A stretch of DNA of 64,000 nt, taken from NCBI RefSeq assembly GCF_004366815.1, contig NZ_SORI01000004.1, positions 124,001-188,000 on the forward strand, read 5' to 3'. A model generated the notes under the pieces. That model was not told the DNA's origin. It worked only from the letters and a program-made list of their open reading frames with translations, and made no database searches. The position numbers and the translations under genes were made by a program. Below are positions 145-19,776 of this stretch, piece by piece (within the stretch, counting starts at the first letter, position 1; each line of letters starts with the position of its first letter). Source of the DNA: Aminivibrio pyruvatiphilus. Its GTDB lineage: Bacteria > Synergistota > Synergistia > Synergistales > Aminobacteriaceae.

Positions 145-1614
145 TCATTCATCATACTGAATATCCGGTATGTCTCGTTTACCGGAAACATCATATTCTT
201 TGGGATCCACGATGCAAAGCTGCGTTCGGATTATCTGCCGCATAGACTTCGCAGGTTCCAGGCAGTATTTCACGAACTCTTCTTTCGAAATATCGCTTTT
301 CTTTCCCACGTGTGGGAAGAGCAATTTTAGAAAAGCCGTACAAAGCCTTTTAATGGCCGTTAAATCCCTCTTGTCTGCCTTTCTTGGTACCGAAATGCAC
401 TGATCTACGACTGCCGAATACACAAGTTCATTTCGTAATGCGTGCAATACCTCGGCAAAATATTCCGTGTTTAGTGCCCAGCCATGAGCGATAATATCCT
501 GATTAAGTCTTGGGATTTTCCAGCCGGGAATAAAACCGTGAAATCGATCAAGAGTTGCTGATTCTTGAAAAATGGGATTGATTTCTGCCACCATGTTTTT
601 GTTTACGTCAAATCGTTCCGCATCGATATTTCCTAACACGATAACGCCTGCATTTGCTACCACTTGAGCATCAAAACCCTTTATTTCTCCGAACTCCATA
701 TAATGTTTAAGGGCAGCCTGTATTTGACTGGGCTGATCGAACTTGATCGACTGGCTTTCATCAAACCCGACATAATCAAATCGAGACAAAAGGCCGCTCA
801 TTTTTTTTTGATTGTCATATACCAGGGCCGCTCTGGATACCGTACCGCCTGAAACCAGCCAGCCGCGCTTGCTGATCTTTTCGTATACGTAACTTTTCCC
901 AGTACCCTTAGGAGCTAACTCGATCAAATTAATACGGTTTTCTACAAAAGGAAGCAAACGCTGTAGGAAAAAAAGTTTCTTGGACTCGCTCGGGGCTCCT
1001 GTAACATCGTCAACATAACCTTTTGGATTGTAATCCACTGCGGATAAAAGAACATCAATCCATTCCTGAATTGAAAACTCTTTGCGAGCTTTCCGATAAT
1101 AATCCAAATCAACAGTATACGGGCAAAAGGGCTTATAATTGACAAGTCGTATGCATCCCTTGGGTGGCTTCTTCGAATAATCCAAGTTCCACATGAAATC
1201 GAGCACACCCCAGTTTTCATTTTCACGCAACAAAACATCTTGCCACTCCTTGACGACGTCGCTCTCAACGACGCCGCTCGCACCAGTTCGAGACCCGCCG
1301 AAATCAGGCAGTTCAAAAACAGTCTTTCCGTCCTTTATATCCACCATCACCCGTATGCGCGCTAGAAAACGAACCTTTTCTCCATTTACCATTGCATATT
1401 TGAATTGTTCGAAATCCTCACGACCAGGGATATATTTTTTTATATACCGGAGAACGCTATCGAAATCGATAACTCCGGATTCATCAGAAAACTTCATAAC
1501 AAGCCAGTCTCTCATATACGAAGGAAGGCTTAAATTCGAAAAGAATTCCGTTTTTTTGGGATCTTTTAGCACGATCATTTCAGAGAAGATACTTTTTATC
1601 TTATCTTCCAGCAA
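145..1614 (-). CDS. brxL: BrxL-like AAA+ ATPase of a BREX type 4 system (short form)
   Basis: 489 aa. The middle of the protein carries the BrxL signature: a Walker A loop APKGTGKS at residues 234-241, directly followed by the conserved segment with GWLVSGGTVSRAAL (251-264), and a Walker B-like YVGFDESQ at 281-288. BrxL proteins are AAA+ ring ATPases with a Lon-like region that bind DNA and are needed for BREX defence. Type 1 BrxL proteins are usually nearer 680 aa; this one stops about 200 residues after the ATPase core, so the C-terminal Lon-protease-like domain appears absent or reduced. It is the last visible gene of the operon, 27 bp after the zinc-ribbon ORF. The start is TTG at 1614, with GAGGTG 8 nt upstream. 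Identity is confident; the short length could be typical of type 4 or a truncation. Confidence 0.88.
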   Translation of the reverse strand: MLEDKIKSIFSEMIVLKDPKKTEFFSNLSLPSYMRDWLVMKFSDESGVIDFDSVLRYIKKYIPGREDFEQFKYAMVNGEKVRFLARIRVMVDIKDGKTVFELPDFGGSRTGASGVVESDVVKEWQDVLLRENENWGVLDFMWNLDYSKKPPKGCIRLVNYKPFCPYTVDLDYYRKARKEFSIQEWIDVLLSAVDYNPKGYVDDVTGAPSESKKLFFLQRLLPFVENRINLIELAPKGTGKSYVYEKISKRGWLVSGGTVSRAALVYDNQKKMSGLLSRFDYVGFDESQSIKFDQPSQIQAALKHYMEFGEIKGFDAQVVANAGVIVLGNIDAERFDVNKNMVAEINPIFQESATLDRFHGFIPGWKIPRLNQDIIAHGWALNTEYFAEVLHALRNELVYSAVVDQCISVPRKADKRDLTAIKRLCTAFLKLLFPHVGKKSDISKEEFVKYCLEPAKSMRQIIRTQLCIVDPKEYDVSGKRDIPDIQYDE

Positions 1615-1641
1615 GAGAGATGCACCTCGATTTCGACAATA

Positions 1642-1848: not shown

Positions 1849-1851
1849 AAA

Positions 1852-4227
1852 TTACTCCCCTAACACATCATCCTCAGCGATTCCTCTTGTTCCCACTTCA
1901 AAACTACAGTTTTCTTCAAGCATTTTCCCGTCTGCTTCAAAACGTAAAAGATGCTTTCCTTGCTTCATTTCCGAGAAATGAATTTGCCACTCTCGTCCGC
2001 TTTCGACAGGACTGCAGTCAGCGCGCTTTTCTCCGGAAAAGGCAGATAGAACAGAAATCTTCTTTGAAAACTTTACCCGCAAAGAAACTGAATCTTTTTC
2101 ACGATAAACAAACGTTGCCAAAAGAGTTGGCTTAGGGGCAAGGGGGACTTTCCTCCTGAGGACAACGACAGGTACGAGTATTTCTTCTGGGGTAGCGCCG
2201 CCATGAACCTCGCCAACACTTTCATGGTCATTGTCACTTTTCCCCGCAGCATTGCCGGACTGTGTAAAGTGCTCATGATTCTTGAACACAATGAAATTCT
2301 TTCCGTCCCGCTCAATGTGGGACATTTCTGGAAGGATTTCTTTCGAGAGCGGAGCCTCTGAGGATTCGCAGTAGCGTCCATATCCTTTAACAGCCATATC
2401 TGCGTGTGGTGTGAAGCCGGGAAGCTTATGAAAAGCAAGTGCCGCTAACCGACTTGTTCCGTGATCTGCACTAATCAGCACATAATCATGTTCCCTAAGA
2501 CTATTAAGGGCAATATCTGCCACTTTTTCTATCTGATCCAGCTGATGGGCTACACAGGAAAAATAATTATTATCGTCGGGGACGCCAGAATGCGCCAGCT
2601 TATCTAAGGCATCCAGCTTCTTAAAAGGTGCGTCAATTTCTGTCCATTGCTGATTATAGGATGTTTCCGTCGGCGCACGGGCACAAACAGGTCTTGCTTC
2701 AACAGAAAAGTCATTGCCTTTATTTCTTAGGCATGAAAGTAATAACGACAACCATTCGACACCCATGGCATCAATCCAGAGAAAAAAGGAATCAAATTTC
2801 TCATATTTCTTCAGTACTGAGTAACGTTTCTCAAAACACTCCAAATCAATGGTCCTAACCATTTCGGATGCTTCCAGAGGCAGCACATTCATTAGTTTGT
2901 GTTTCCTGTACCAATGAAGATACGTCGATAACTCAGACGACAGACATTTATCGGAGGCGGTCATATAGTCCCAGAATAATGGGTAGCGTTCACGAAGAGG
3001 TGATGCAACCGCCTCGAAGTCTATTCCCTTTTTCAAGTATTTGTTGATCGTTTGTATCGCATACGTTTTTTCAGCATGTGTTTTGTAGGAGAGCAAGGAT
3101 AGTCGTGTTTCCAGTGAGGATACCTTTTCTAATTGAGAAAAAAAGTATTCGTCCTTTTCTTCAATTTTTAAAGCAGAAACGGCTTTTGCCCTCTCTTCGA
3201 TCCATTCGCTCTTCTCGATGCAGTCGAAAATGGAATACAATATTGAATCAAGGATGCCCTCTGGACTTTTTGCACGTTTTACCGCATATCCGCAGTAGTT
3301 TTCGGACGGATTGAACCTATACCAAAGCCAAATCAGCCAGCGTTTATAGGGTGACAGAATTTCCCATCGTGAAAGAAGTGAGATCGGCTCAAAAACAAGC
3401 ACATTCAAGCTTTTTTTTATGATTTCGGCCAAAGATTTTCCATAATGAAGATCTTGCGACAAGGAAGTCCATTCTTCGGCCGTTCCCCATTCACGTCTCA
3501 AAGTGCCGCCATCATCCAGGGAGGCAGTGATATAGTCAAAAACATCAGAAATGATCTTTATATTAATTAAAGATGATGATATTTGCTCCGTATTCCTCCA
3601 GAGATTTGTAACGAGCCTGCAGCTTTTTCTCTGGCCGTTTATCATGCCTGACCATTTATAAAACCATGTCTGAACACCCTGCATGATATCGGTTCCACAA
3701 AGAGCCTCTCCAAATTCCTGGGAATAAACATTCAAGGAAAAAGGCTCGAGGGAATGATCAGAATGAACTCGGCTTGAGGGAAGGCTCAGCTCCCAAATGC
3801 AATCCCTCTGGCGTTCATCATCGTAAGGAATTACTCTATCCCATAAATCCCGGCAACATGGCAAAGGGATGATAACTCTCGTCCTGGATGAGGCAGCCTG
3901 CTGGCTATACCAGAGGGACGGGATATTCGCTTTTTGTGGTTGGACCTCACGTGCAATGGTCAGACGTAAATATTCTCCGAGAGAAAGAAGCAAAATATGT
4001 TTTTCCCGATGCTCTTCTATCTTTTTGAAAATTTTACTGAAATTTGGGAGCACATCCGGCGCAGAGCAGAAATCGGCCAACTCCAGCGTCACGTCGCAAG
4101 CATTTTCAAGAGCGGTCTCCAACTCTTTGTATTGTGACCAATCATCGACAAAAATAAGCCGTACCGGAAATCGGGATTCTACCTTTTTTTCATCCGCGAG
4201 CCGCTGAAGAATCTCTTGCAGCGTCAC
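1852..4227 (-). CDS. pglZ: PglZ-family BREX protein (alkaline phosphatase-like domain)
   Basis: 791 aa. PglZ is the shared hallmark of all BREX types and has an alkaline-phosphatase-superfamily domain. Here that domain begins near residue 478 with FFLWIDAMG (metal-ligand Asp at 486), continues with LISADHGTSR (Asp588-His589), and ends with the conserved GEVHGGATPEEILVPVVVL segment. The ~470 N-terminal residues are poorly conserved, as usual. The start is GTG at 4227 with a GGAGGG ribosome site 7 nt upstream; an ATG one base away is in another frame. It follows brxC by 20 bp and precedes the zinc-ribbon gene by 3 bp. Its biochemical role in BREX (phosphodiesterase or phosphatase acting in DNA marking or signalling) is not settled. 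Confidence 0.93.
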   Translation of the reverse strand: MTLQEILQRLADEKKVESRFPVRLIFVDDWSQYKELETALENACDVTLELADFCSAPDVLPNFSKIFKKIEEHREKHILLLSLGEYLRLTIAREVQPQKANIPSLWYSQQAASSRTRVIIPLPCCRDLWDRVIPYDDERQRDCIWELSLPSSRVHSDHSLEPFSLNVYSQEFGEALCGTDIMQGVQTWFYKWSGMINGQRKSCRLVTNLWRNTEQISSSLINIKIISDVFDYITASLDDGGTLRREWGTAEEWTSLSQDLHYGKSLAEIIKKSLNVLVFEPISLLSRWEILSPYKRWLIWLWYRFNPSENYCGYAVKRAKSPEGILDSILYSIFDCIEKSEWIEERAKAVSALKIEEKDEYFFSQLEKVSSLETRLSLLSYKTHAEKTYAIQTINKYLKKGIDFEAVASPLRERYPLFWDYMTASDKCLSSELSTYLHWYRKHKLMNVLPLEASEMVRTIDLECFEKRYSVLKKYEKFDSFFLWIDAMGVEWLSLLLSCLRNKGNDFSVEARPVCARAPTETSYNQQWTEIDAPFKKLDALDKLAHSGVPDDNNYFSCVAHQLDQIEKVADIALNSLREHDYVLISADHGTSRLAALAFHKLPGFTPHADMAVKGYGRYCESSEAPLSKEILPEMSHIERDGKNFIVFKNHEHFTQSGNAAGKSDNDHESVGEVHGGATPEEILVPVVVLRRKVPLAPKPTLLATFVYREKDSVSLRVKFSKKISVLSAFSGEKRADCSPVESGREWQIHFSEMKQGKHLLRFEADGKMLEENCSFEVGTRGIAEDDVLGE

Positions 4228-4247
4228 ATGCGCTCCCTCCCTGCTTG

Positions 4248-7200
4248 CTATTCTACAAAGTAATAGCCGAGTTCTGGATGTTCATCCAAAAGAGCCGATA
4301 ATTTATTTTTAAGCGTGTTCTCGCTCATTGAAGCAATCTTTTCCTGGACATCCTGCAAATACTGCATTTTCAGCTCCTTTTTTCTAAATTCACTCAAAAT
4401 ATTCGTGATCTCGGGAGCTTTTAGAGCCCATCCGTATGCATCGACTCCCAATTGATTTCGAATATCTGCAAGAAGACGATCCCGGTTTATTGAGAAAAGG
4501 TCTTTAAATTCTGAACCTACCTTGGCAAAAAAACGATTTTGAACATACTCCGGATTCTGCAGATAGGAGATGGCCGTGTTCTTGAAAAATGAAAGCGTTT
4601 TTTTCAGCACTCCCCCGTCGACAGGTTGTATTTCCTGAATCGATTTCAAAATCCTGAAATGCTCAAGATCATTTTCAGGAACAACCCACTGAATCGGCGT
4701 GGCATATTTTTTGCACCACTCCGAAATCGATTCAGTTCCGGAAATCTCTTTCCAGATTGACAGTAATTCCTCTTTATTGCGTGATATTTCTATCTTGCCC
4801 AACTGTCTGTCGATCGTATCGGAAAAATGAGCTTCGGGGCTATCGTAGGGAACAGGCTTCAAGCTGGAAATAATCTCCTCCAGCTCTTTCTCCTGACATG
4901 AGATTCCCCTCTTCCTTAAGTATTCCTCCAGCATTAATTTGGAAGAAGTAACAAATTGCCATGCAGCTTTCGAATGAGTTTTCAAGACCTGAAGAATACC
5001 AGGTCTTTGATCTGATGGCGGAAGGAAAATGCCCTTGCTGATTTTGGACAATAAACGCAAAGCTTCTGTCCAATCTTTCTCGAATGTCTCGATCACGATA
5101 CCAGGGACTATCATTGAACGGAAATAGTTCGATAGCTGCTCACCAATCAGGGAAATACTTCTGCAAGAAGTACCCATCGCCGAATTCACTACGAAAACCA
5201 GTTCATATTCCCAACATAGTTCATCGAGTTTTGTTTTTACATCTTCCTCAGACCAGGTATACACGGCACTTTGAAGCACCTGTTTGATGCGTGAGATAAG
5301 ATCGCCCGAAGAAACGTCCATCTGCTCCATCAAAACGCGCAGCGGAGGTGAAGCTTCGGCTACAAAAAACCTGAAAGCCTCAGAAAGTTTCTTTTTGTCA
5401 GCGAAAGCCTCAGTCATATTCTTGCGCAGAGGTCCCATTCCATTAAACAAAGCGACGGTATTTTCCATTATTTCGGTAGAACTTTCAGCCCCGTTTATGA
5501 ACGCTCCTATGTTTTCGACTATCTCGCAGGCCTTTTTCTTTGCTTCGACACTACCGAAGCTCTCCTCTCGGAGGTATTTCATCACCCAGAAGGGAAGTCC
5601 TGTTGTCACGAGTTTTTCGCGCATGTACTTTCGAGCCTGCTCCTCGCTGACCACATCAGCGTCCGTAAGGGCAAAAATACACTGAATATACTCTTTAAAA
5701 TTCTGCCATGCCTTCGAACCACATGAAAGCGTATTGCCGATCATCTGCCCTTTGCAAATCTTCAAAATCATCGAAGCCATGGTCTGTTCGGTCAAAATAT
5801 GGGTATTATTTGTCTCATCAATCCAGTAAAACTGTCCATTCACATAGAACCTCAACACCGCCCCAAGAATGCCTGCACAGGCCAAAGAGTTAAAATAACC
5901 GAAAGGCTCTTTCTGGAGGTCACTCCACATCTGGTCTAGATGAACCCGCGTACCTTTGGAAAGCGTATCGTTAATATAACGGGACAGCTGGGAAACAGTT
6001 CGAGCTACGACATTGCTCCCTTCGTATCTCACAAGCTCATCTATAGATGCTGCTTCATAGACCTTAGCCGTTTGTAAGGGTTGGAGAATATTGTTTAATT
6101 GTGAACTGGTAGCTTTGCCGGAAATTCCGCTCAAGGCCGCACTTTCAGTAGCTCCCTTAAAAGCGGTTGAGGTACTAACGATACGCTCAGGTGCGGCCGA
6201 AAAAATGCGGAATATGACACCATCTTTCAGCTGTCGTGAAAGATCATCTTTTCCCCATGCAGAGAAGACCCTATCTTTATAAAAAGCGGTAATTTTATTG
6301 CTTACAGCAGACTGTACCCACGCGAGCAGCATTTGCTCCGCTTCATTTTCATATTTGTCCGCGCTCCCCTTTTTCCCCTCTTCGGCAGCCAGCTCTTTAT
6401 GCGTTATTTTTTCATGCCACCGGTTCAGAAAATCATCGGTCAGCGGCTCTTTTAAAACGCATGTAACAAGATGATTGGTTTCATCTTCTGCAGCCATGCT
6501 TTTTAGCTTGTCGTGAAGAGTTTGATATTCGCTGGATTCTTTCAGAACAATCACAAGAACTCCGACAGCATATGGTGATTTTTTTAACTCATCCAGCAAA
6601 TCCGCATGACGACGATTGATAGAGTTCGTCTCCGAAGAGCAGGCGCAGACGGTAACTCTTCTGCTTGTTGCGTCATCGTCAGCCCAAATACGTCCTTCTA
6701 GGGCATCTGCAATTTCACCCTTCTTTTTGAAAAGTTCATACCGTGTATATTTCCTTTGAATCTGCTCCAATCGGATGGAGAAAACATCGGCATTTCCACT
6801 GTATGGTAGTTCCAGGCGCACGTCTCCGCTGGAGCTTTTGTCGAGACGAAGCAACCCGTTCTCCTGAAAGAGTTCGAGATATTTGTCCAAATCTTCTTTC
6901 GTAAGCTGACCGCTAAAACAGAGATACAGGCATTTTTGGGTAGGTGAAACCCTGCCGTTGTTCAACCTGCTGTAAAGATGCGTTGTCCTGGTGGTGGACA
7001 TGACTGCTATCAAGAGCATAATCGCTTTAAAAACATGTTGGCCTGTCTCATTTCCCGCATAATCTCTCTTCTCTATATAGTGCTGATAACACTTTCGGGC
7101 ATCCGAACTGAGGTCTTTCACGTCACTATCCCGTGTAAAGAAATAGTCCCAGAGGAAATCGGGAGTCAACCATCTCCAATCATCCGGGCCATATTTATTG

Positions 7201-8444
7201 ATAAAGTGGATGAACCCCACGTTTTCGTCCGCCTCGCTGAGATCTTTCATGAATCGAAAAAGTGTTCTCTGTGAAGCCCCGAAATTCTGCGCCACTATAG
7301 CAAGCATTGAAAGCGTCATTGGATGCAACGGGCATAACTGGGAAAGCCGGTCTTGTTTCCTTTCCATCTCCAAATTATCGAATTCATGAACATCGTTTTT
7401 TAAGCTTTGCATCAGTTTTGCCTTGATTTCTTTCCACTGTTCCTCCATTCCGGGACGAATCCAGATGGAATTGCCTATAAGATCGTAAGCTGCACTTTCA
7501 CTGATATGAAACTCAAGTTCGTGATAACGGTGCATTATACGCTGATACGTTTGCTCTCCCATATTCTCTACCCAGCCCGGATCACGGTGCACTATCAGAC
7601 ACATATAAAACGGCTGTTGTTTGCAGTACTCGGATAAACGCTGCAAGACGTTGTCATCTCCGCAGTCTCGAAGAAAACCTGTAAACTCGTCCCAAATGAA
7701 AACAATTCCGGTATCCGTTAGTTTGTTCCCGGCGATTATGTCCTTTAGCCATTCCTGGAACTGATCCACGCTGTTGAAGAGCCCCCAGCCCTTCTCCTTG
7801 ATGATCATAGCCACTCTGTCGGTTGCTTTTAAATCGTTCCCCATGATCTCTGATTTAAGCTCTTCGAGAGAGCCGAATTCCTCAAAGAGACCGAATTCCT
7901 GGTCATGGAAAACATGCTCCCAGTTGATAGACCGGTCATTCAACTTGTCCTTCACTGAACGGACCAGGGAACTGCTCCCGTAATAAACCTTCTCCCCAAA
8001 CTTCTGGCGCAGTTTTTCGCAAATAGCGGCCTCCATCTCCATCATAAGATGAACGCCGTTTTTTATGCCCGTGCATCCACTCTTCCAGACAACAAGAAAC
8101 TCTCCTCTTTCTCGTATGGAGACAAACTTGTTACGGTAAGGCAAAAGAATTTCTTTTGAAAGAAAGGGCTTAATATCTTCTATAGGGTCTTCAAAGAGGT
8201 GTTTGAGCACTATAGCCGCATAGCTTTTTCCGGTACCGTAGGCACCGTGAATCCAGAACGATCGCCGGGCATCCTTCGTCTCTTCTTTAATCGACTGGCA
8301 AATCTTGTCCAAAGCGATCTTCATATCCTCATGGACAATATATTCCTGCCAAAGATTTGGATTGCGTTCCTCGGCATCCAGATCGACAACTGATTCATAG
8401 TAAGGACTCAGTTCAATGTACGAACTGTACTTCGGCATCTCCAT
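4248..8444 (-). CDS. brxC: BrxC-family large P-loop ATPase of BREX
   Basis: 1398 aa. BrxC proteins are very large AAA-type ATPases (DUF499/BREX BrxC family) that scaffold the BREX complex. A Walker A loop GAYGTGKS is at residues 67-74, preceded by FWIH, and a Walker B segment IVFIWDEFTGFL is near residue 250. The remaining ~1100 residues contain no motif I can name and are mostly helical in character. The ATG at 8444 has AGAGGTG just upstream. It starts 6 bp after brxP ends and stops 20 bp before pglZ, giving the brxP-brxC-pglZ-brxL order that defines BREX type 4. Homologues in other BREX types are about 1200 aa. Confidence 0.92.
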   Translation of the reverse strand: MEMPKYSSYIELSPYYESVVDLDAEERNPNLWQEYIVHEDMKIALDKICQSIKEETKDARRSFWIHGAYGTGKSYAAIVLKHLFEDPIEDIKPFLSKEILLPYRNKFVSIRERGEFLVVWKSGCTGIKNGVHLMMEMEAAICEKLRQKFGEKVYYGSSSLVRSVKDKLNDRSINWEHVFHDQEFGLFEEFGSLEELKSEIMGNDLKATDRVAMIIKEKGWGLFNSVDQFQEWLKDIIAGNKLTDTGIVFIWDEFTGFLRDCGDDNVLQRLSEYCKQQPFYMCLIVHRDPGWVENMGEQTYQRIMHRYHELEFHISESAAYDLIGNSIWIRPGMEEQWKEIKAKLMQSLKNDVHEFDNLEMERKQDRLSQLCPLHPMTLSMLAIVAQNFGASQRTLFRFMKDLSEADENVGFIHFINKYGPDDWRWLTPDFLWDYFFTRDSDVKDLSSDARKCYQHYIEKRDYAGNETGQHVFKAIMLLIAVMSTTRTTHLYSRLNNGRVSPTQKCLYLCFSGQLTKEDLDKYLELFQENGLLRLDKSSSGDVRLELPYSGNADVFSIRLEQIQRKYTRYELFKKKGEIADALEGRIWADDDATSRRVTVCACSSETNSINRRHADLLDELKKSPYAVGVLVIVLKESSEYQTLHDKLKSMAAEDETNHLVTCVLKEPLTDDFLNRWHEKITHKELAAEEGKKGSADKYENEAEQMLLAWVQSAVSNKITAFYKDRVFSAWGKDDLSRQLKDGVIFRIFSAAPERIVSTSTAFKGATESAALSGISGKATSSQLNNILQPLQTAKVYEAASIDELVRYEGSNVVARTVSQLSRYINDTLSKGTRVHLDQMWSDLQKEPFGYFNSLACAGILGAVLRFYVNGQFYWIDETNNTHILTEQTMASMILKICKGQMIGNTLSCGSKAWQNFKEYIQCIFALTDADVVSEEQARKYMREKLVTTGLPFWVMKYLREESFGSVEAKKKACEIVENIGAFINGAESSTEIMENTVALFNGMGPLRKNMTEAFADKKKLSEAFRFFVAEASPPLRVLMEQMDVSSGDLISRIKQVLQSAVYTWSEEDVKTKLDELCWEYELVFVVNSAMGTSCRSISLIGEQLSNYFRSMIVPGIVIETFEKDWTEALRLLSKISKGIFLPPSDQRPGILQVLKTHSKAAWQFVTSSKLMLEEYLRKRGISCQEKELEEIISSLKPVPYDSPEAHFSDTIDRQLGKIEISRNKEELLSIWKEISGTESISEWCKKYATPIQWVVPENDLEHFRILKSIQEIQPVDGGVLKKTLSFFKNTAISYLQNPEYVQNRFFAKVGSEFKDLFSINRDRLLADIRNQLGVDAYGWALKAPEITNILSEFRKKELKMQYLQDVQEKIASMSENTLKNKLSALLDEHPELGYYFVE

Positions 8445-8450
8445 ACACCT

Positions 8451-10796
8451 CTATTCGATAGCGAGATCTATGATATCCAGCGATGATACCTCCGTGGACA
8501 GCCTTACGTTGTCAAGGTCTGCCACAAATGAAACCCGGATAAACTTCTCGAAATGAAGAGCCAATTCCTGCAAGATTTCTTTGAAAGCAGCGGGGTTTAT
8601 AGCGAATATGGAAACGGGATCCATTCCTGCGCTTTCATCGCTTGACCTGGCCTGCTCGAGCTGGGCCAGGGAAAAAGCATGCCGACCGGTCTTTTCGGCC
8701 CAAAGATACAGGGCGTACAGAACAGCAAGAGCATCCGGCGTTTCCCACCCCTGCTTAATGAACTTGTAACTGTTTCCGATAGCAATGGGAATACCCTGCT
8801 TGAGAACGCTGCCTACCGGGCTGTGGCGCAGGGTTTCCAGCAGAGAGGTGATTGCGTTGTCCCGCGTCGAATGTGAATAGTCGTCCCCGAGCATAGATAC
8901 CAAGTCACCTTTTTCATAGGTCTCTCCTGCAGGGACCTTGAGCATGTACCACCGAATAATCGTTGAAGCATAGGCCAGATTCGACCAAATCACGGCCCAC
9001 GTCAGCGGGTTGTAAGCTCCTAAAGTTTTGAGTCTCTCGAAAAGAGGCGTAGGGTTTCCGGATTTCTCTCCCTTATTTGCTGGAGTAATCAATCCGCTTT
9101 CTTTTAGCCAGACTTTTAGTGCGTCGTATTGTCGATTCCCAAGGTGTCCCGTCGAAAAACAGTCGCTTCCAAGTTCGAAGTAGTGCTCCAGCCAGATTCT
9201 TCGAAACCCAAATGTCTGATATCGGTTCATTCCTTTCAAATTCATCCCGTTGCCCCCCAATGTCGTCGAAAGGGATTTCGCCACAAGACACCCTTTCCCT
9301 CCGGTGAATACAATGCAATTCCCGCAGTGTACGCACCGATCCTCCCGAACGAAGATACGGCCGCTATCTAAAATGGTGAATGCCCCTGTAGGGCACTGCA
9401 CGACGCAAGCCTTGCAGCCGATGCAGTATGCAACCTTGTTCGCAACACCTCTTAAATAGCTTAGAATGTAACGATCCATTTGCTTGTACGGAGCATATTT
9501 CACGGTAAACGCATCGGAATTATCTACCGTGAAAGAAAATTCCCTTCGCTGAATTAACTGAACACCTCTGTTACCAGAGACCTCAATTATTGGACCTAAA
9601 AGAGGAGCAACATCAAACCAATTTTGTTTTGGAGAGGTAGTGAATTGAAATATCAAATTGTCATTTATAATATTTTCTAATACCCTATTGCCCCCATTGG
9701 GTAAATTACGTCCACCCATACGAGTTCGCCAACCATTAGATTCAATATATAATTGCCTTCTATTGGCATTAACACCTTGATTCTCAGCATATCGCTCTAC
9801 TTTCCCCAATAGCGTTTTAACTTCATTGTGAAATAAGGAATTACTAAGGCTATCACGCCATTTTGAGGACAATGGGCAAACAGTACACCCTACTCGATTA
9901 AATCCCAAATAATAAAGATGATTTAATAAGATATTGTTTTTCAATAAATATACAAAGGCTTCGGCCGAATTCCACTTTAAAATTGGACTGCAATTCACTT
10001 GGCTAATATTCTTCGCCCCAACGCTGACATCACCGTATTGTGACCGCGCCGCACTTTCTTCCGCACGCACACCGTCAAAGACAACGGCCTTCACATTGTA
10101 GTCTCCTGTTATCTCACGAAGTTTCAGAAGCGTGGGCACCGACTTATGAACTGCACAACACCAACGCATGCGCCTTCCAGGAGGCCCGAACTCGTCCCAT
10201 GTCCTTTCGGGCGTCATATGTGATGCCGCCTCGTAAAACCTTAGATTGCTCCAATGTTTCTTTGCCCTCTCAATTGCATCTATGGTACCTTGTAGTTCCA
10301 TTCCGGTATTACTGAAAATAACCTGAAAACAGTCGGGAGGGAGAGCCTTGTCCACCAAATCCAGAACTAAAAGTGAATCCTTCCCCCCGCTGAAAGCCAC
10401 CACAAAGGAATATCCTTGACCGCTGAACTCTTCATATTGTCTGCGTATAAAAAAAACGGCTTTTTGTTCCAGGCCCTTAATGAGCCCCTCGTTTACACTC
10501 CATAGAAGGTCCAAATCTATCGCCTTCAAGCAAAGATCCTTTTTAAAAACTTCAATTCGCGGCTTGGTGTAGAACCCCCCGCCTTTTGCCTCAGCGACAC
10601 ATTCTCCATTCAGGATATATCGCCTGATTCCTTCCGCCCACAAAAGAGGGGCGGTTGTATCAGGATAGTTCCAGTATTCTTGCATACCGAAGAAATCAAG
10701 CTCTTCTTTGAAAACTGGCCGAATTTCTTTCTCAAGTTTACTCGTTACAGATAATTTAAAAATTCCATACTGACTGGTCCATTCATAGCCGTACAT
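8451..10796 (-). CDS. brxP: BrxP: PAPS-reductase-like PP-loop protein fused to a ferredoxin domain (BREX type 4)
   Basis: 781 aa from ATG 10796, which has AGGGG 7 nt upstream; an in-frame upstream start inside the HNH gene lacks a good site. A PP-loop SGGKDS lies at residues 136-141, as in PAPS reductases, DndC and SspD. Cysteines follow at WCC (212-214) and GCTVCP (303-308). A ferredoxin-type domain follows with CIGCKACVVQC (458-468) and CVHCGNC (488-494) plus a later Cys503, suggesting two 4Fe-4S clusters. BrxP defines BREX type 4. By analogy with DndC, ATP activation of a DNA-linked group and sulfur transfer is plausible, but no cysteine desulfurase is visible here. DNA coding residues ~259-418 (9541-10020) is visibly more AT-rich than the rest of the gene, hinting at an exchanged module. 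Confidence 0.9.
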   Translation of the reverse strand: MYGYEWTSQYGIFKLSVTSKLEKEIRPVFKEELDFFGMQEYWNYPDTTAPLLWAEGIRRYILNGECVAEAKGGGFYTKPRIEVFKKDLCLKAIDLDLLWSVNEGLIKGLEQKAVFFIRRQYEEFSGQGYSFVVAFSGGKDSLLVLDLVDKALPPDCFQVIFSNTGMELQGTIDAIERAKKHWSNLRFYEAASHMTPERTWDEFGPPGRRMRWCCAVHKSVPTLLKLREITGDYNVKAVVFDGVRAEESAARSQYGDVSVGAKNISQVNCSPILKWNSAEAFVYLLKNNILLNHLYYLGFNRVGCTVCPLSSKWRDSLSNSLFHNEVKTLLGKVERYAENQGVNANRRQLYIESNGWRTRMGGRNLPNGGNRVLENIINDNLIFQFTTSPKQNWFDVAPLLGPIIEVSGNRGVQLIQRREFSFTVDNSDAFTVKYAPYKQMDRYILSYLRGVANKVAYCIGCKACVVQCPTGAFTILDSGRIFVREDRCVHCGNCIVFTGGKGCLVAKSLSTTLGGNGMNLKGMNRYQTFGFRRIWLEHYFELGSDCFSTGHLGNRQYDALKVWLKESGLITPANKGEKSGNPTPLFERLKTLGAYNPLTWAVIWSNLAYASTIIRWYMLKVPAGETYEKGDLVSMLGDDYSHSTRDNAITSLLETLRHSPVGSVLKQGIPIAIGNSYKFIKQGWETPDALAVLYALYLWAEKTGRHAFSLAQLEQARSSDESAGMDPVSIFAINPAAFKEILQELALHFEKFIRVSFVADLDNVRLSTEVSSLDIIDLAIE

Positions 10797-10806
10797 AAAA
10801 CAACCC

Positions 10807-11490
10807 CTATCCAAGCGTTTTAAGAATCTGTTCGCACTGAGAGCGGGAACGCCACGGACGATACTGATGCAACACCTGATGGCAGTTCGGACAAACCGTT
10901 ATAAAATCTTTTCCCGAGAAACGCATTTCAGGTCTCATGTCTTGCGGTAGGACGAGAAGATGAGGATCAAGGAACCGAGCAGTTTCCCTGAGGTGAAAAG
11001 CTGTTTGTGGATTCAAACCACATATCGAACAGCTATTGCAAGTTTTGGAAAAGCGAAAACCATGACGATTCTCTAAGAAGCTATGTAAATTGAATAGAAT
11101 AACCCCCTCAGGAAACTCAACGGTCGAGGGGAAATAAGAAAAACCTATAGATTTAACGAAATCAGAATTTCTTTTAATAGATTGAGCAATTTCTGAGATT
11201 AATATTTTATTCTTGCCAATCTCATTATATACCGTATAGAATATTTCGCCTACATGAATTGGTTTCTTCTTTTTCTGCAACCCCCATTCAAAAGTAAGAA
11301 GTTGTCTCCGTACACCTGAAGGATTCCTAAAGGTCTCATCCCGCTCAGAAAGCGGAATGAGAGGAAGACTATTCAGTAGTTTGCTCAACTCGATAATCGC
11401 TTCATTCTCCACGGAAAAGTTCTTTGTATCCATGGAAAAAAGGACGTCCAATCCCAAAATGACTTCGTCTCGCGTCCAAGGAGGGTTCAT
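10807..11490 (-). CDS. HNH endonuclease-like protein at the head of the BREX type 4 operon
   Basis: 227 aa. The N-terminal half resembles the common leader of McrA-like HNH restriction proteins: PPWTRDEVILGLDVLF at the start and FRNPSGVRRQL near residue 55. The C-terminal half has a zinc-binding HNH scaffold, CNSCSICG then VCPNCHQVLH, two CxxC pairs about 55 residues apart. The usual HHxxP catalytic strand is not obvious; only an isolated His in AFHLRE precedes the second CxxC, so activity is uncertain. The stop lies 10 bp before the brxP start and its own start is 3 bp after the upstream gene, so it is translated in the same operon. Middle codons (11,060-11,330) are unusually AT-rich. It may cut foreign DNA by its modification state, but that is inference. 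Confidence 0.75.
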   Translation of the reverse strand: MNPPWTRDEVILGLDVLFSMDTKNFSVENEAIIELSKLLNSLPLIPLSERDETFRNPSGVRRQLLTFEWGLQKKKKPIHVGEIFYTVYNEIGKNKILISEIAQSIKRNSDFVKSIGFSYFPSTVEFPEGVILFNLHSFLENRHGFRFSKTCNSCSICGLNPQTAFHLRETARFLDPHLLVLPQDMRPEMRFSGKDFITVCPNCHQVLHQYRPWRSRSQCEQILKTLG

Positions 11491-11493
11491 TGT

Positions 11494-13677
11494 TTATACT
11501 CCTGCGTTCAGGAGGACTGTTCTCATGTCCTTGGACCAGGCAAATCGGAAATCGTCCAGTGCCTTGTGCATGCTGCCGACAAGTTCGTTTCCCTCCAACA
11601 CCCCGTTTTGCTTCAAGAATTGGCGCAAATCTTCAGCACTGACACGTTTGCGGGGCTCCCGTCGTTCTTGAAGCAAAGCTGAAACAACATCGGCAAAGGT
11701 CGCTATTTCGGATTGCAAAGGAACGAGTGCGGCGTGCAGAGTATCTGTTCTCTGTCCAGAAAGGGCGGGTATAGAACGATATCCGATATCCTGATGGAAT
11801 CGGAGAACCTCTTGGAGCAAAAGCGCAGTCCATTCAAGGCGAAATGGCAGTTCAGGAAGGCTCGAGTACCATTCCTTCCTAATGTCGCGAAGAATGATAA
11901 ACTTGTTGCCATCGAAAATCCTTGAAAGGCACCCGGAAATATGCTTTATCCACTGTTCATTTATTTGTAGGAACTCGTCAAGCAAGTAATGATTTCTATC
12001 ATACTGTAAAAAAGTGCCTTCTCTCCCGATACCCATTACAGTTTGCTTAAAATTCGGTACATTGAAGCCAAGGCGCTTTAAAAACTCGTCGCACTCTTCA
12101 CCGGAAACGATATTTTTCGCCATACGAGCGAAATGGATTGCAAGGCCTTTCATTGTCTTCGGATAACTCGGTTCTTTATACCAGATATGGGTCCCATTGG
12201 AAAAGACAAAAGAATGGCCACGATATTGCTCTTTTGAAAAAAAATGCTTTGCCAGCAAGTATACAGATACTATGTCATCAAAGCCGTTATCGTTCAAGGG
12301 AATCATTAACTCCACTCGAACTGCATTGTATAAGAGACGCGCTGAAACATATCCGTCGAAACGCTCGAAAAGCCGCTCAAGAATTCGGTGCAACCCGTCT
12401 GCAATCTTGTCCGCGTCTACAATTGCAGAACGATGGACATACTTCTCTCTTCCAATCTCTACGATTAGAATTTCAGAAGCGATTAATTCCGATGCGACCG
12501 CCCGTGTGCATTGCAGATTAGAACAAATTTCTTGCAGAGAAGCCCCCTGAACACCATAGCCCTTAATAAAATCCAAAATATGTTCCGAAAGGTGATATGA
12601 TGCAGTTGTATCGTTCAAGATATCATCCCGATTCCTTGAAAGAGAAACCTCCGAATTGGATGAACATGTACGCATCCCCAACGAAAACTTTGGGCGCACG
12701 TAGATTTGCACTTCCTGGATGGGAATGCCTGTATGAAGACAAATGCTCTGCGCGCTGCGGACAACATTACGGACATCGGGATCAGCGTTCACGAAGAAAC
12801 CATCAGCAAATTCCTTTGAAAAACGGAAAGCGTTTTTGTTTCGGGAAATTAAGGGGCACTCTCCTCGAACAATAGGAGTGTCAGCAAGTTTTCCGATACG
12901 TTCCGGGCTTTTTTGGATTGCTGCACTGCATACACAAAGCAGGACATCAGACCAAGATTCGACCGGGAAAGACCTGTTGCTTACCACAGAGCGGACAGGG
13001 GCAACCTCACTCAAAATCTCTTCGGAGGCGAGATCCATCACCACAAGACCAGCATTTTTCTGTACGAACGCATCTTTTGGGGCCAAGATAAACTGCACTT
13101 CTTTTGAAGAAGGTTCGTTTGGGAAACGCTTTTTAATGCTGTTTAAAATTTCTAGGCGCTCTTTCAAAGGGTAGATATTTTTTCTATTCATGTATTGCAA
13201 GATGGAAATATTCCTTATTTGTTCCAGAGTCGTAATTCCATCTATTTTAAAAGCATCGAGAAGGGGACGGTATTTATCTTCCTGCAGCAGAGTCTCTAGA
13301 GACTGAGACACCATTTTCTCCCTGCATTCCGCTGTTGAAAGAGAATCTGCTGAAAGAGTTCCCCTTTTAGCACTATCATACCTCGATTCAAGTTCGCTTC
13401 CTTCCTCCGAGCAAAACTTTTCATACAGCCGTAAAGCATCAATAATCGCAAACTGCTCTAAAGTGGGCATTGACCTGAATTCGGGGGATGAGATCACTTC
13501 TCTAACTTTATTTTTCATCAAAGAAGGCGACAGATGGATAAAATCAAATTCAATCTTCATAAAACGAGGAATTGAATAGAGATGCTTCATCACTTGGTTA
13601 GGATCGGACAGTTTTTTACTGAAAAGCCATTTTTTAAAGCGTGATTCATTAGTATTTGCTGAAACGCCAAGTGACAT
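11494..13677 (-). CDS. Unrecognised 727-aa protein, first gene of the BREX type 4 operon
   Basis: I do not recognise a family. From ATG 13677 (AGGTGG 5 nt upstream; a GTG 9 nt earlier is less well placed) it reads 727 aa, with no signal peptide, membrane segment or Walker motif. The middle (roughly residues 390-430) has a helix-turn-helix-like segment, GASLQEICSNLQCTR followed by ELIAS and a strand-turn ending KYVHRS, which reads like a winged-helix module. The N-terminal ~200 residues are strongly helical. It lies 3 bp upstream of the HNH gene, so the two are probably made together and may work as a pair. Candidate roles are DNA recognition, a specificity or regulatory subunit, or a nuclease partner; the sequence alone does not choose between them. 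Confidence 0.7.
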   Translation of the reverse strand: MSLGVSANTNESRFKKWLFSKKLSDPNQVMKHLYSIPRFMKIEFDFIHLSPSLMKNKVREVISSPEFRSMPTLEQFAIIDALRLYEKFCSEEGSELESRYDSAKRGTLSADSLSTAECREKMVSQSLETLLQEDKYRPLLDAFKIDGITTLEQIRNISILQYMNRKNIYPLKERLEILNSIKKRFPNEPSSKEVQFILAPKDAFVQKNAGLVVMDLASEEILSEVAPVRSVVSNRSFPVESWSDVLLCVCSAAIQKSPERIGKLADTPIVRGECPLISRNKNAFRFSKEFADGFFVNADPDVRNVVRSAQSICLHTGIPIQEVQIYVRPKFSLGMRTCSSNSEVSLSRNRDDILNDTTASYHLSEHILDFIKGYGVQGASLQEICSNLQCTRAVASELIASEILIVEIGREKYVHRSAIVDADKIADGLHRILERLFERFDGYVSARLLYNAVRVELMIPLNDNGFDDIVSVYLLAKHFFSKEQYRGHSFVFSNGTHIWYKEPSYPKTMKGLAIHFARMAKNIVSGEECDEFLKRLGFNVPNFKQTVMGIGREGTFLQYDRNHYLLDEFLQINEQWIKHISGCLSRIFDGNKFIILRDIRKEWYSSLPELPFRLEWTALLLQEVLRFHQDIGYRSIPALSGQRTDTLHAALVPLQSEIATFADVVSALLQERREPRKRVSAEDLRQFLKQNGVLEGNELVGSMHKALDDFRFAWSKDMRTVLLNAGV

Positions 13678-14004
13678 AAGATCCACCTCATTATTCAGAG
13701 AAATACAAATTAGATCAAAGACGTGAACATACCACCATCACATAAAAGATGTTTCAAATTAGTACACTCGGACCCTTTGAATAAGAAAAAGAAGAATCGA
13801 GAGCATCTCTTTTATAGTATTGAAAACTCGACCTGCATATTTTTAATAAACCTAAAAATCTCCATTTATCAGCCTGCATAGATAGATTCCATAAATATTT
13901 TCATCTTTCTATACTGCTCTAACCCTATTTGTTGAAGATAATTTACTGCTGTTTTTCAGTAGAAGCAACCTATCCTTATTTTTTACAGCTTTTCTCTGGG
14001 ATTA
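13678..14004. other. AT-rich gap between rpoC and the BREX operon
   Basis: About 330 bp with no convincing ORF on either strand and only a weak hairpin (TACTG...CAGTA near 13,950). No clear intrinsic terminator follows the rpoC stop, so some read-through from rpoC into the defence operon is possible. It contains the putative BREX promoter. Confidence 0.6.
13729..13757 (-). promoter_or_regulatory. Possible promoter for the BREX operon
   Basis: On the minus strand TTGAAA (13752-13757) is followed after 17 nt by TGGTAT (13729-13734), about 52 nt before the first ATG of the operon. The -35 fits well and the -10 only moderately. A TACTATAAAA element further upstream (around 13,812-13,821) is an alternative -10. 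Confidence 0.35.
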
Positions 14005-17000
14005 CTAGCTCTGTTTTATAAAAAACGAGCGGTTTCCGTTTTTTCGACCCATACTCAAATATCCTATGATTTCCAGATCAGCAGCATACACTTCTGATTT
14101 TTGAGAGAAGAAAAATGGTGTTTCACCTTGCCCCTTCCTTGATCGATCTCCTTGAGTCCGCACATTTCCATGGAGCATAAGCCAGCCAAGCAACATGACT
14201 ACAAAAAACAGGATTATGAGAGTGACACGTTTCAGAATTTTCACATTCGCTTTCTTTCTTGTTTCATCGTCCCGAGCAGTTTCGTCTCCGTTTCCTTCAG
14301 AGAAAACATGGTCTGGAGGCGTGGAAACCAACTGGACCCTTTCATCAGAATCTTCTCCACCAGGTCTGAATGCCGGGCGATCATGCTGGGCATGCTCTTG
14401 AAAGCTGTTGCTGTCATCCTTATTTTCATCCATTTTCTCTTGCAATCCAGTCTCTGGTGCCGGCCTTTTCGATTCTGCGGCATAATAAAAATGAGCTTCT
14501 TCATCGGCAATATTATGCTTTTCTCCTAAAGTCACTTCTATTTCCTTATGTTGACTGCCATAAGGCATGGGAACTATCTCATCGTATTTCTCCTCATCAG
14601 AAAAATGTTGATAAGGGTTAACATCGCTTCCAGAAACTGGATAGCCTGCTTTTTTGTTTTCAAAACTTGCTTTGGGCATATCTTGATAATATTCCTCGGT
14701 AAAAGAAATTGGGGAGTTCTCTGGATTTTTTTTCTCTTCAGGTCTTCTTAGTATTGGAGTCATCTGAATCATCTTGATGTTTTGGAAAAACTCCACTCCC
14801 GCTCCGGCGGCTTTTTCGGCCAGCGCCCTGGCCTGGCCGACCCTGATGGCCCGGAATCTTTCAACTCCCGTTCCGGCGGGGATGAGGTGACCGATGATCA
14901 CGTTCTCCTTCAGGCCCTCGAGGGGATCGATTTCCCCCTTGACCGCCGCCCCGGCCAGGACCTGGGCCGTCTGCTGGAAGGACGCCGCGCTGAGGAAGCT
15001 GTCCGTGGCGAGGGCCGCCTTGGTGATGCCGTGAACAAAGGGCTTCACCTTCGGCCCCTCCCGGAGTTTCCGGACGAAGGTCACCCGCTGGATGATCTTC
15101 TTTTCGTCCTTCCGGGGAGCGCCAATGGGACGGACCACCACTTCCAGGAGATCCGGACAGTCGGCGAGGGCGTCGATCACGGCCTGGTTCACTTCGGTGC
15201 CGGCTTCAGCCAGGACATGTCCTTTCCTGTCGGTCACTGATTCGAGCAATACCTTGCCGTAGATCTTGGCCGACAGGAGATCCCTGAGAAAACGGTCTCT
15301 CGAGAAAATGGAGCCGTCTATCTCTATGGCGGAAACGGAACCGTCGAGAATTCCTTTAATGATGGAAGCATCCACCAGCTGCGGAATGTCCGCAATGGCA
15401 TCCCCGTCCCGGTCGATGGCCTGGGTCAGGGGCTTGCCCCACTTGTCCTTGAGGCTCTCCTCGAGCTTGTCGGGTATGTTGACCCGCTCCACCGTATGCC
15501 ACAGGACGATGGACGGGACATTGAGCTCCCTGCACCGGGCGGCGTCCTTCGCCGTGAAGACCCTGTCGGCCTTCGCGATGAGTTCGTCGTCCACGATGAT
15601 GTTTTCAGCGAGATAAACGCCGTCGGCGAGCTTTTCAAGAATCTCGCCGTCACGGACGAGCAGGGGCGTCGGGTCGTCGGCGGTGATGATGCCGAGCTGC
15701 CCGAGGGTCAGGTGGGTCCCGGCGGAAATTTCCTTGCCGTCGGAGGAGGTGAAGGGAGTGATGAGGTCCATGCCCTCCATCTGCTTCCTGAAAGCGGCCT
15801 CGCCCACGATGAGGGTGACGGGAACGCCTTCCTCGTCGTCCACCACCACGGAGGAGATCATCATGCCGGGCCTGAGTATGGTCCGGATGGCTTCCTCGTC
15901 CAGGGGGACACCGATATACCTGGTCACCGCTTCGTTGAGCTTCTGGGAAGCCACGTCCCGGAGGATCCGGCCCGAGAAGATCCGGACCGCTTCGGTGATG
16001 TTGTCCTCGTTTTCCTTTACTATCTGGGCCATCTCGGCGTCGATGTCGTCGGTCCACACGAGGTCGCCGGCCACGAAGGAGGTGTCTCCCTCCTCGGTGA
16101 TCTTGACCCGGTTCACCGGCGCCACTTTCCGCAGGATGACCTCGATGTGCTTGTTGTTGATGGACACGCCCTGGGATCGGTAGACTTCCTGGATCTCGTC
16201 CACGAGGGCCCGCTGAACGGCCTCGATCCCCTCCACCTCGAGCATCTGCTGGGGGTCCACGTTGCCCTCGGTGATCTTGTCGCTCTTCCTGACCTCATCC
16301 CCTTCCTTGATCAGAAGGTTCTGGCTGATGGGGATGTTGTAGGTAGTCTTTTCCTCGCTCTCGCCGTTTCCGGAGGTGATGATGACCTTCCGCTTGCCTT
16401 CCATGACCCGGACTTCGGAAACCCTGCCGTCCACGCCGGCGAGGTAGGCCACTTTCTTTGGACGGCGGACTTCAAAGAGCTGCTCGATCCGGGGAAGACC
16501 CTGGGTGATGTCCTCACCGGTAAGACGGACACCGCCCGTATGGAAGGTCCGCATGGTGAGCTGGGTTCCCGGCTCGCCGATGGACTGGGCGGCAACGACG
16601 CCCACCGCCTCGCCCATGGGGACTTCCTTCCTGGTGGCCAGGTCCATGCCGTAGCACACCTGGCACACGCCGTGCCGGAGGCCGCAGGTCAGGGGGCTCC
16701 GGACCCACACGGATTCGATTCCCGCCTTTTCTATCTTTTCCGCCGTCTCGACGGAGATGCATTCACCCTTCGACGCTATCACGGTGCCGGTCGCGGGGTC
16801 GGCGATGTCGTCCAGGGCGGTGCGGCCGTAGATCCTCTCCGAAAGGGGGATCATGACCTTCCCGTCCTGCTTCAGGGGCTCGATGCAGATGCCGTGGTCC
16901 GTGCCGCAGTCATGGTCCGTGATGATGAGATCCTGGGCCACGTCCACGAGCCGCCTGGTGAGGTATCCCGACTTGGCCGTCCGGAGGGCGGTATCGGCAA

Positions 17001-19776
17001 TTACCCTCCTGGTAGTAGCAGCTACAATAAAGTACTCAAACATGTTCATCCCCTCGCGGAAGTTCGCCGTGATGGGATAGTCGATGATCCGTCCCGACGG
17101 GTCGGACATGAGGCCCCGGATGCCGGCCATCTGGCCCATCTGGCTCCGGCTTCCCCTGGCGCCGCTGTCGCTCATCATGCGGATGGGGTTGACCCGATCC
17201 ATGTGGTCCACGATGCTGTCGGCTATGGACCTTGATTTCTCCGACCAGAGGCTTTCCTTCTGGAAAAGATATTCGTCCTGGGTGAGGATGCTCATGTTGT
17301 ACTCGGACTTGAGCTCCTCATCCTCTTCCATGGCCTGCCTCGTGAGTTCCATCTTCTCCGGCGGGATGATGATGGACTGCACGCCGAAGCTGATGCCGCT
17401 CCGGGTGGCCCACCGGTAGCCCAGCATCTTGATGTCGTCGAGCATCTTCACCATGGCCACCCGGTTCACCATGTCGTAGGCCCGGTCGAGGATGGCGCCG
17501 AGGTCCTTCTTTCCGAGCTGTCGGTTGACGAACCGCAGTCCCTCGGGAAGGATGCTGTTGAAGATGACCCGGCCGGGGGAGGTGATGATCCAGTTCCCTT
17601 CCCCTCCCCACTCGGGGCTGTTTTTCAGCTTGACCCGGCCGTCCACCTTCACCGCGCCGTGGTTGAACGCCACGAGCACGTCGTCAAGGTCGGTGAAATG
17701 GGGCAATTCTTCCCCTGCCGTTTCGTCCTTCATGTCCGTCAGGTAGTAGATGCCCAGGACGATGTCCTGGGTGGGCGTCATGACGGGGCGGCCGCTCGCC
17801 GGGGAGAGCAGGTTGTTCGCCGAGAGCATGAGCAGCCTCGCCTCCGCCTGGGCCTCGATGGACAGGGGCACATGAACGGCCATCTGGTCTCCGTCGAAGT
17901 CGGCGTTGAAGGCGGTGCATACCATGGGGTGCAGGCGGATGGCCTTGCCCTCCATGAGCACGGGTTCGAAGGCCTGGATGCCGAGCCTGTGGAGCGTGGG
18001 GGCCCGGTTCAGCATGACGGGGTGGTCCTTGATGATCTCTTCGAGGATGCCCCAGATCTCTTCCCGGCCACGCTCGATGATACGCTTGGCGCTCTTCACG
18101 TTGGGGGCGAGGCCCCGCTCCACGAGCTGGCGGATGACGAAGGGCTTGAAAAGCTCGAGGGCCATCTGCTTCGGCAGGCCGCACTGGTAGATCTTGAGCT
18201 GGGGGCCGATGACGATGACCGAGCGGCCGGAATAGTCGACCCGCTTTCCGAGGGGGTTCTGCCGGAAGCGCCCCTTCTTGCCCCGGAGCAGGTCGGTGAG
18301 GCTCTTGAGGGGCCGGTTTCCGGCGCCCAGCACGGCCTTGCCCATGCGGCCGTTGTCGATGAGGGCGTCAACGGCTTCCTGGAGCATGCGCTTTTCGTTG
18401 CGGATGATGATCTCCGGAGCCTTGAGATCCTGAAAAATCATAAGCCGATTGTTCCGGTTGATGACCCTCCGGTACAGGTCGTTGAAGTCCGACGTGGCGA
18501 ACCGGCCGCCATCGAGCTGCACCATGGGGCGCAGGTCGGGCGGGATGACCGGCAGCACTTCGAGGATCATGGACTTGGCCGCGGATTTGCTCTTCCGGAA
18601 GTCCTCCGCCACCTGGAGGCGCTTGATGAGCTTCCGTTTCTTCTGGCCGGTGCTTTCGGAGACTTCTTCCCGGAGGGCCGCGCCGAGCTGGTCGAGATCG
18701 ATCTGCTCCAGCAGGGCCTGGACGCCCTCGGCTCCGATGCCCGCCCGGAATTTCTTGTCGTAGGCGGCGCAGAGGTCATACTCCCTCTCGAGGATGATGT
18801 CGGCGGGAGCGTAGGGGGAGATGCCCTCCTCGATGACAACGTAGCAGGGGTCCTCCACGGTGATGACTTCCTGCTGGGCGGTGAACCTCCCGGGGAATTT
18901 CTGGCTGTAGAGCCGGAACTCGCTCTCGGAGAGGACGTCGCCCTTTGCAAAGGGAAGGTGGACGGCGGCGATGACCACGAAGGCCTCCTGGTTTCCGGCC
19001 ATGGCCCGTTCGATTTCAAAGGTGTCGCCGTGGCGCTTCCGGTGACGCTCAACTTCAGACGCTGATACCACGGCACCTACAGCGCAGGAAGGGTCATCGG
19101 GAATGGTGACGAAGGTGAAGGCGGTCTCCACCTTGAAGCTCTCGTCGCCGTACTCCGTCTTGAACCGGGAGACCTGCCCCGCGGAGAGAAGGTCGTCCTC
19201 GTTCACGGGGACGTCGTCCACGGTGACGATGCGGAAGGCTTCCTCGGCCTTGAACTTGGGATCGTAGTGGCTGTGGATGCGGACCTCGCTCTCGGAGAGC
19301 ACGTCGTTCTTCCGGGCAAGGTCGATCCGCCGTCCCTCAATGACCACCTTGTAGGCGGCCTCCCGCCGGCGGGTGGGGGCGAAGTAGACCACATTCACCA
19401 GGTCCTTGATGGTGCAGCCCAGCAGCAGGCTGAGCCTGCTCGGGATGCCCTGGAGGTACCAGACGTGCACCACCGGCGCGGCAAGCTCGATATGGCCCAT
19501 GCGCTCCCGGCGGACCCGGTTGTCGGTGACTTCCACGCCGCAGCGGTCGCAGATGATCCCCTTGAACTTGGGGCTGCTGCGCTTGTATTTTCCGCAGGCG
19601 CACTCATAGCTCTTGATGGGGCCGAAGATGCGCTCGCAGAAGAGTCCGTCCTTTTCAGGCCGGAGGGTCCGGTAATTGATGGTCTCGGGCTTCTTCACCT
19701 CTCCGCTGGAGAGTTCCCGTATTCTTTCCGGGCTTGCGAGCTTGACCCGCACCCCGAGTATTTCCCTTCGGGCCAA
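14005..19776 (-). CDS. rpoC: RNA polymerase beta' subunit with an abnormal membrane-type C-terminal extension, not next to rpoB
   Basis: 1923 aa. The core is intact: N-terminal zinc ligands C59, C61, C76, C79; the catalytic NADFDGD at 624-630; the second zinc site ([20 protein letters not shown]) and the trigger-loop region [19 protein letters not shown]. Residues ~157-346 carry about five degenerate ~42-aa repeats (D-x-LSESE...KF.AE). The normal beta' end is reached near residue 1663; the remaining ~260 residues are an acidic, low-complexity linker, one hydrophobic helix ([18 protein letters not shown], ~1851-1868) and 55 more residues. These codons are AT-rich, unlike the core. The start is TTG at 19776 with AGGGG upstream and an in-frame TGA 9 nt before. 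rpoB, normally adjacent upstream, is absent, as are rpsL and fusA downstream. It may be an extra island-borne copy or the sole, relocated one. Confidence 0.93.

Follow-up and report, generated by a model that had tools for sequence, protein, structure and literature searches.

An HNH-fold protein with a very probably inactive nuclease site, encoded directly before brxP in a BREX type 4 operon of Aminivibrio pyruvatiphilus

The BREX type 4 island and its HNH-like gene

The window, by which we mean the whole 64,000-nucleotide stretch of the Aminivibrio pyruvatiphilus genome that was analysed, carries brxP, brxC, a pglZ of the BREX-4 type and brxL in a single operon, the gene set that identifies a BREX type 4 system. 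Directly before brxP lies an intact ORF of 227 aa with an ATG start, confirmed as it had been given by the initial annotation. The genes of the island and its flank are as follows:

145..1614, minus strand: brxL (TIGR02688)
1852..4227, minus strand: pglZ, BREX-4 type (NF033445, E 1.6e-88)
4248..8444, minus strand: brxC (BrxC/PglY, SspC-like)
8451..10796, minus strand: brxP, with a PAPS-reductase domain, 4Fe-4S and a weak DUF4007 match; start at the ATG giving MYGYEW
10807..11490, minus strand: HNH-like probable pseudo-nuclease, 227 aa, with a helical N-terminal head (~1-70), helices to ~150 and a degenerate HNH core (~154-209)
11494..13686, minus strand: 730-aa protein upstream of the HNH-like gene; tandem winged helices are modelled in its C-terminal half, and its homologues stand before brxP in related BREX-4 loci
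14005..19776, minus strand: rpoC (RNA polymerase beta'), a host gene flanking the island

The 730-aa ORF is followed after 3 nt by the HNH-like gene, and brxP starts 10 nt past the HNH-like stop, its mechanical ORF beginning at 10814 and its likely ATG being placed at 10796. BrxP (PADLOC, E 8e-225) has PAPS-reductase and 4Fe-4S domains and weak SspD/DndC matches, which upholds the original observation of an HNH-fold protein encoded together with an enzyme of DndC/SspD-like type. BREX-4 has been reported to make phosphorothioates (PMC11931770 and PMC12839542, in part). Just beyond the window, a class-V aminotransferase (E 2.7e-80; L027 4994-6133) adjoins brxL, and by sequence it is a putative counterpart of the cysteine desulfurase described for BREX-4, an enzyme found beside the BREX-4 core in 56% of taxa (PMC12839542, in part). 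The G+C content of four measured island genes is 41-46%, whereas the window as a whole has 53.6% and rpoC 59.6%; for this reason the island (145-13686), which lies right after rpoC, is probably an acquired, recent-looking insertion. A separate small HNH protein (PF01844, E 6.4e-8; L027 1184-1504) is encoded in the same genome outside the window, a few kb past brxL and near a transposase-like ORF.

The 227-aa ORF is a genuine gene and not a chance reading frame: tblastn on plasmids returned 16 records, 9 of them with coverage of at least 80%, mostly at ~20-30% identity and many annotated as HNH endonuclease. Phage records gave no match and viral contigs no close relatives; an alignment-based scan of the latter led to 25 loci, and the wider profile found there only relatives whose first core strand ends in two histidines (HH-type). 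The protein could be placed in no family of Pfam, NCBIfam, PADLOC or PHROGs, as none of these collections gave a meaningful, usable match. The family profile of the protein matches EcoKMcrA in the PDB (E 3e-8), and its AlphaFold model, based on a 23-sequence alignment (pLDDT 87.4, pTM 0.85), displays the beta-beta-alpha core of the HNH, or beta-beta-alpha-Me, fold (strands 175-178 and 196-199, helix 201-209) with its zinc Cys pairs. On structural re-alignment the best matches are HNH proteins over ~131-227 at modest Z values (5.3 and below), the assignment resting on sequence and structure jointly; this search covered mainly ~131-227 and hardly probed the N-terminal part. The head domain plus HNH also align over their full length with relatives, and judged from sequence and model together the protein is an HNH-fold member of the McrA-like HNH endonuclease family.

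Other endonucleases that combine this head with HNH (on Priestia, Psychrobacter and Rhizobium plasmids; L011, L014, L015 and L017) align full length at 26-32% identity and share the head domain, the Cys4 zinc site and three metal-ligand His with the window protein. They differ in that their first core strand ends in HH, whereas that of the BREX-4 copies ends in HL and neither Arg of a conserved "RER" helix is present there; the neighbours of these relatives, moreover, are restriction-modification (R-M) genes or others, not BREX. EcoKMcrA (PDB 6ghc) has the HNH core in common (Z 5.1 over 81 residues) but another N-terminal specificity domain, and its HH is intact in the aligned chain. ScoMcrA (PDB 5zmm), a phosphorothioate (PT)-dependent type IV enzyme, likewise offers an HNH-fold core and a PT context, but the match is weak (Z 3.5 over 86 residues, rmsd 5.4). 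Pfam detects no SBD or SRA domain before the HNH in the window protein, an SBD model in the library being unconfirmed, and 227 aa leave little room for one. SspE and the GmrSD/BrxU-type ParB(DUF262)-HNH proteins are effectors of PT and BREX systems. They too are HNH-fold proteins attached to such systems, but the window protein has no DUF262/DUF1524 match and its core is degenerate. Legionella DotN (PDB 5x1h), from an unrelated system, is also among the structural matches (Z 4.2); it is an HNH-like component of the type IVB coupling complex and a precedent for structural use of such a fold.

Some relatives occur in other surroundings. A separate, syntenic HNH-like pair with HY (L143 6761-7450, L144 9377-10069) is not near BREX and lies between genes that look like housekeeping genes by eye (acetate-kinase-like in L144, SDR-like in both); the L143 copy has no Pfam match. 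One HH-type relative adjoins a gene read by eye as nucleotidyltransferase-like, possibly another defence context (L156 4919-6715), and two adjoin cytosine methyltransferase genes of R-M systems (L015 2505-4030, SinI-family; L017 8774-10714). A general R-M link of HH-type relatives was rejected, since a cytosine-methyltransferase motif is nearby in 5 of 30 loci only.

Lost and retained residues of the active site

The first core strand ends in HH in all 28 aligned relatives. Where the family has E-[AC]-H-H, the window protein reads D175-P-H177-L178, which bears out the earlier comment that an ordinary HHxxP strand is hard to make out. In colicin E9 (ColE9) and HpyAV the first His of this pair binds the metal and the second acts as general base (PMC2816704, in part), and the water-activating His of TagI stands at the end of the first core strand (PMC6212794, in part). 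In the AlphaFold model L178 ends that strand (175-178) and occupies the position of the TagI His; the position that holds the general base in an active HNH endonuclease is here a Leu, the pair being HL in all four known BREX-4 copies and HH in 28/28 aligned relatives. The residues concerned are encoded at:

10957..10962, minus strand: codons of H177, the metal-ligand His that is kept, and L178, the changed general-base position (column analysis and model strand 175-178)
10867..11031, minus strand: zinc/metal core C154, C157, H177, D195, C200, C203, H204 and H208 (alignment columns)

The HHxxP of the relatives aligns gap-free to HLTVP in L038, another BREX-4 locus. A one-residue slip of register, which would keep the general base at the cost of the metal ligand, was rejected because L038 retains the P of HHxxP at equal spacing and strand 1 of the model ends at L178.

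The Leu does not stand alone. R139 and R141, both Arg of the RER helix, and the strand Glu E175 are changed in 4/4 BREX-4 copies, the relatives having R in 26/28, R in 28/28 and E in 26/28, respectively; K63 and N66 are changed in all three BREX-4 copies that extend that far. By comparison with these losses, C154, C157, H177, C200, C203, H204 and H208 are retained in all four copies, so that the metal-ligand His of the fold (the first His of HH and the pair of CxxCHxxxH) are all present as H177, H204 and H208. H136 and E140 are invariant in the alignment columns of the whole family.

Judged by the alignment and the model, the HNH-like protein of the window has very probably lost its nuclease activity. 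The label "HNH" in the initial annotation stands as a description of the fold, given the EcoKMcrA match and the modelled core, but finds no support as that of a nuclease, given Leu178. A catalytic His or Asn in the modelled site, which it had made the test of activity, is found only in part: the three metal-ligand His are there, but the general base is missing, and Asp takes the place of the Asn, a feature shared with 27 of the 28 active-looking relatives. Its guess of inactivity is the one that the evidence favours, the general-base His being Leu in every BREX-4 copy found. For that reason a ScoMcrA-like enzyme that cuts modified DNA is improbable; Pfam, moreover, detects no SRA or sulfur-binding domain (SBD), and the ScoMcrA match reaches only Z 3.5. 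The puzzle that had been raised of how such a cutter spares self-DNA is thus not supported.

The HL variant and the head domain in other BREX-4 loci

Other BREX-4 loci supplied three further copies, each immediately ahead of brxP: those of L038 and L155 are intact, and that of L091 is a relic. L038 and L091 are the two relatives found directly upstream of brxP in a scan of the best 80 of 289 BrxP relatives, which is not a random sample; profile searches across 1595 genome entries, some overlapping, yielded one more intact operon, L155. The intact operons, three in number, share one gene order: the gene of the upstream protein, the HNH-like gene after 3-4 nt and brxP after a further 10-33 nt. 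Each also carries brxC, pglZ, brxL and a class-V aminotransferase. PADLOC recognises brxP, pglZ and brxL in both L038 and L155; it also finds brxC in L155, whereas the brxC of L038 was read by eye. The brxC of L155 (11082-15292) falls into two ORFs of 957 and 451 aa, through a frameshift or an assembly error, the operon being otherwise complete. The relic in L091 (6541-7698; also L148) sits in an otherwise unrelated neighbourhood and consists of a 116-aa HNH-like remnant beside a 266-codon brxP remnant.

Among 51 distinct homologous ORFs, 41 have HH, 4 HL, 3 HY and 2 HN, and one was left unclassified by the script, its stretch containing HH; HL is thus found in 4/4 BREX-4 copies versus 0/46 other classified homologues. 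The four HL proteins form a single clade (support 100/100), and the branch has acquired invariant residues (R142, L178, F196, T198, P201 and C219) that are present in 4/4 BREX-4 copies and 0/28 relatives. The three full copies are 35-51% identical, keep their reading frames, diverge most at third codon positions in every pair, and span the lineage of the window and Bacillota. Because the branch is one fully supported clade with its own invariants, these sequence comparisons indicate that it is a maintained, apparently non-cutting variant and not a product of decay. The gene is at the same time, to judge from its distribution, an optional part of BREX-4 and no core component, since it is present in only 2 of the best 80 of 289 loci and the loci that bear it are scattered on the BrxP tree. 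The BREX-4 loci of the closest taxa (L020-L024) gave no tblastn match to it, and no HH version of the family was seen in the best 80 of 289 BrxP loci.

The head domain of the HNH proteins, ~65 residues long, was sought in all ORFs of those best 80 of 289 loci and found in the brxP-adjacent ORF of 23, namely the HNH-like protein of L038 and 22 large proteins, nearly always at the N-terminus of the latter. The count of 22 fused heads was obtained with a profile that had been rebuilt from its hits in two rounds, the profile before iteration giving 14 (E<=0.1), and comprises fewer independent cases, L096/L106 and L061/L088 looking near-identical. Two fused-head proteins, those of L041 and L081, are homologous to the 730-aa protein of the window (E 6e-49 and 2e-72); neither the 730-aa protein nor its counterparts in L038 and L155 carry a fused head. 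When two modules form one protein at some loci and two proteins at others, they usually work jointly, and on this ground the head and the upstream protein may be expected to work together. The model of the 730-aa protein (pLDDT 71 overall, ~90 in the C-terminal half) contains winged helices, with a best match of Z 9.9 over 60 residues; the matches to Pol III, SelB and similar proteins were taken merely as winged helices, and Pfam offers no match of note. An ORF of at least 90 aa ends less than 500 nt from brxP in 71 of the best 80 of 289 loci, homology being shown for part of these only, and the large protein that precedes brxP is absent from the BREX-4 components named in the available part of PMC12839542.

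Two candidate relatives of the head domain were set aside. The Type ISP coupler gave weak matches only (Pfam E 0.0028 in 1/15 members; LlaGI E 0.26), and the PDB match 9r1o (sc-apCC-6-DPH-NR, E 0.00015), presumably a designed coiled coil, was disregarded.

A possible role in BREX-4, and its alternatives

On balance we think it probable that the protein is a pseudo-nuclease serving as a DNA-binding or adaptor subunit of BREX-4, in partnership with BrxP and the winged-helix protein encoded upstream; within this proposal, the loss of efficient cleavage stands on firmer ground than the rest. An McrA-like HNH endonuclease would have lost its nuclease chemistry and survived in the phosphorothioation system as a subunit that is stabilised by zinc and binds DNA or acts as an adaptor. 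Its HNH core, with a structural zinc and the complete set of metal ligands, would occupy DNA without hydrolysis, DNA binding being putative and suggested by the fold. The N-terminal head would dock the protein to the winged-helix protein, or else do the same job as the fused head of other BREX-4 loci, and the pair might present or sense DNA for BrxP and BrxC. Fusion of the head to the protein before brxP ties the HNH-like protein to the DNA-handling side of BREX-4, and a disarmed HNH fits better than a cutter because BREX-4 has been described as antiviral without restriction endonuclease activity (PMC11931770, in part). Against the adaptor reading counts that merely two other intact copies and one relic are known. 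A more specific version, to which we would give a rather small chance, is that the core holds the backbone phosphate sulfurated by BrxP, or reads an existing phosphorothioate, without hydrolysis, as a pseudo-nuclease clamp interchangeable with the head fused to the winged-helix protein elsewhere.

Retention of all metal ligands and the zinc site means that residual cleavage could persist, and H136 and E140 might act near the site. The protein might accordingly still be a slow or re-wired nuclease, either a weak nickase tolerated by the host or an enzyme in which another residue activates water; its nicks might serve the insertion of sulfur, or it might act as a reserve for restriction. There is precedent in HpyAV, whose H295A mutant retains about 1% activity, and in I-PpoI, where a neighbouring His stands in (PMC2816704, in part), and HNH auxiliaries are reported in BREX loci (PMC12839542, in part). 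We nevertheless hold this unlikely: Leu is the substitute in every case, the two arginines of RER and the Glu of the strand are lost alongside, and an HH version is missing from the best 80 of 289 BrxP loci. The fully active form of the idea, a PT- or 5mC-dependent restriction enzyme of McrA/ScoMcrA type under BREX control, has the resemblance to EcoKMcrA in its favour and the cytosine methyltransferase genes near some relatives, but lacks the general base, any SRA or SBD seen by Pfam and a convincing fit to ScoMcrA; with the RER arginines lost as well it was rejected as the main reading, and its chances are very slight.

Two further explanations, both of which we consider improbable, accept that the site is dead. 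Patchy presence on the BrxP tree and the truncated L091 relic would suit a decaying passenger, an auxiliary nuclease that has lost its active site and is being discarded; the three intact frames, from the lineage of the window and Bacillota, however, share the same substitution and new invariants, their differences concentrate at third codon positions, and in L091 brxP is cut short too, which points to loss of the operon and not of the HNH-like gene alone. A sensor, decoy or switch, in which the dead HNH captures DNA mimics or anti-restriction proteins of phages and so controls BREX with no part in modification, would parallel the inactive nuclease domains proposed for such roles in other BREX-related systems (PMC12839542, in part), but a site between the putatively DNA-binding upstream protein and brxP fits a role on the modification side equally well or better.

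An HNH protein encoded beside BREX or PT genes is usually taken for an auxiliary or backup cutter, and HNH auxiliaries in BREX have been described as effectors (PMC12839542 and PMC10853773, in part); no report of an inactive HNH branch in BREX was found in the literature covered, and one search of open-licence PMC articles gave only an unrelated review on CRISPR. The HL branch, at four loci, is a counter-example. For a branch that resides in BREX-4 and is apparently disarmed yet conserved, annotation as a restriction enzyme would mislead. The common head domain, moreover, links the HNH-like protein to a little-described large protein that stands before brxP in most of the BREX-4 loci examined. 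How BREX-4 chooses and handles the DNA that it sulfurates is poorly described in the literature covered, and a small, separable and probably non-cutting subunit may offer a handle on this process.
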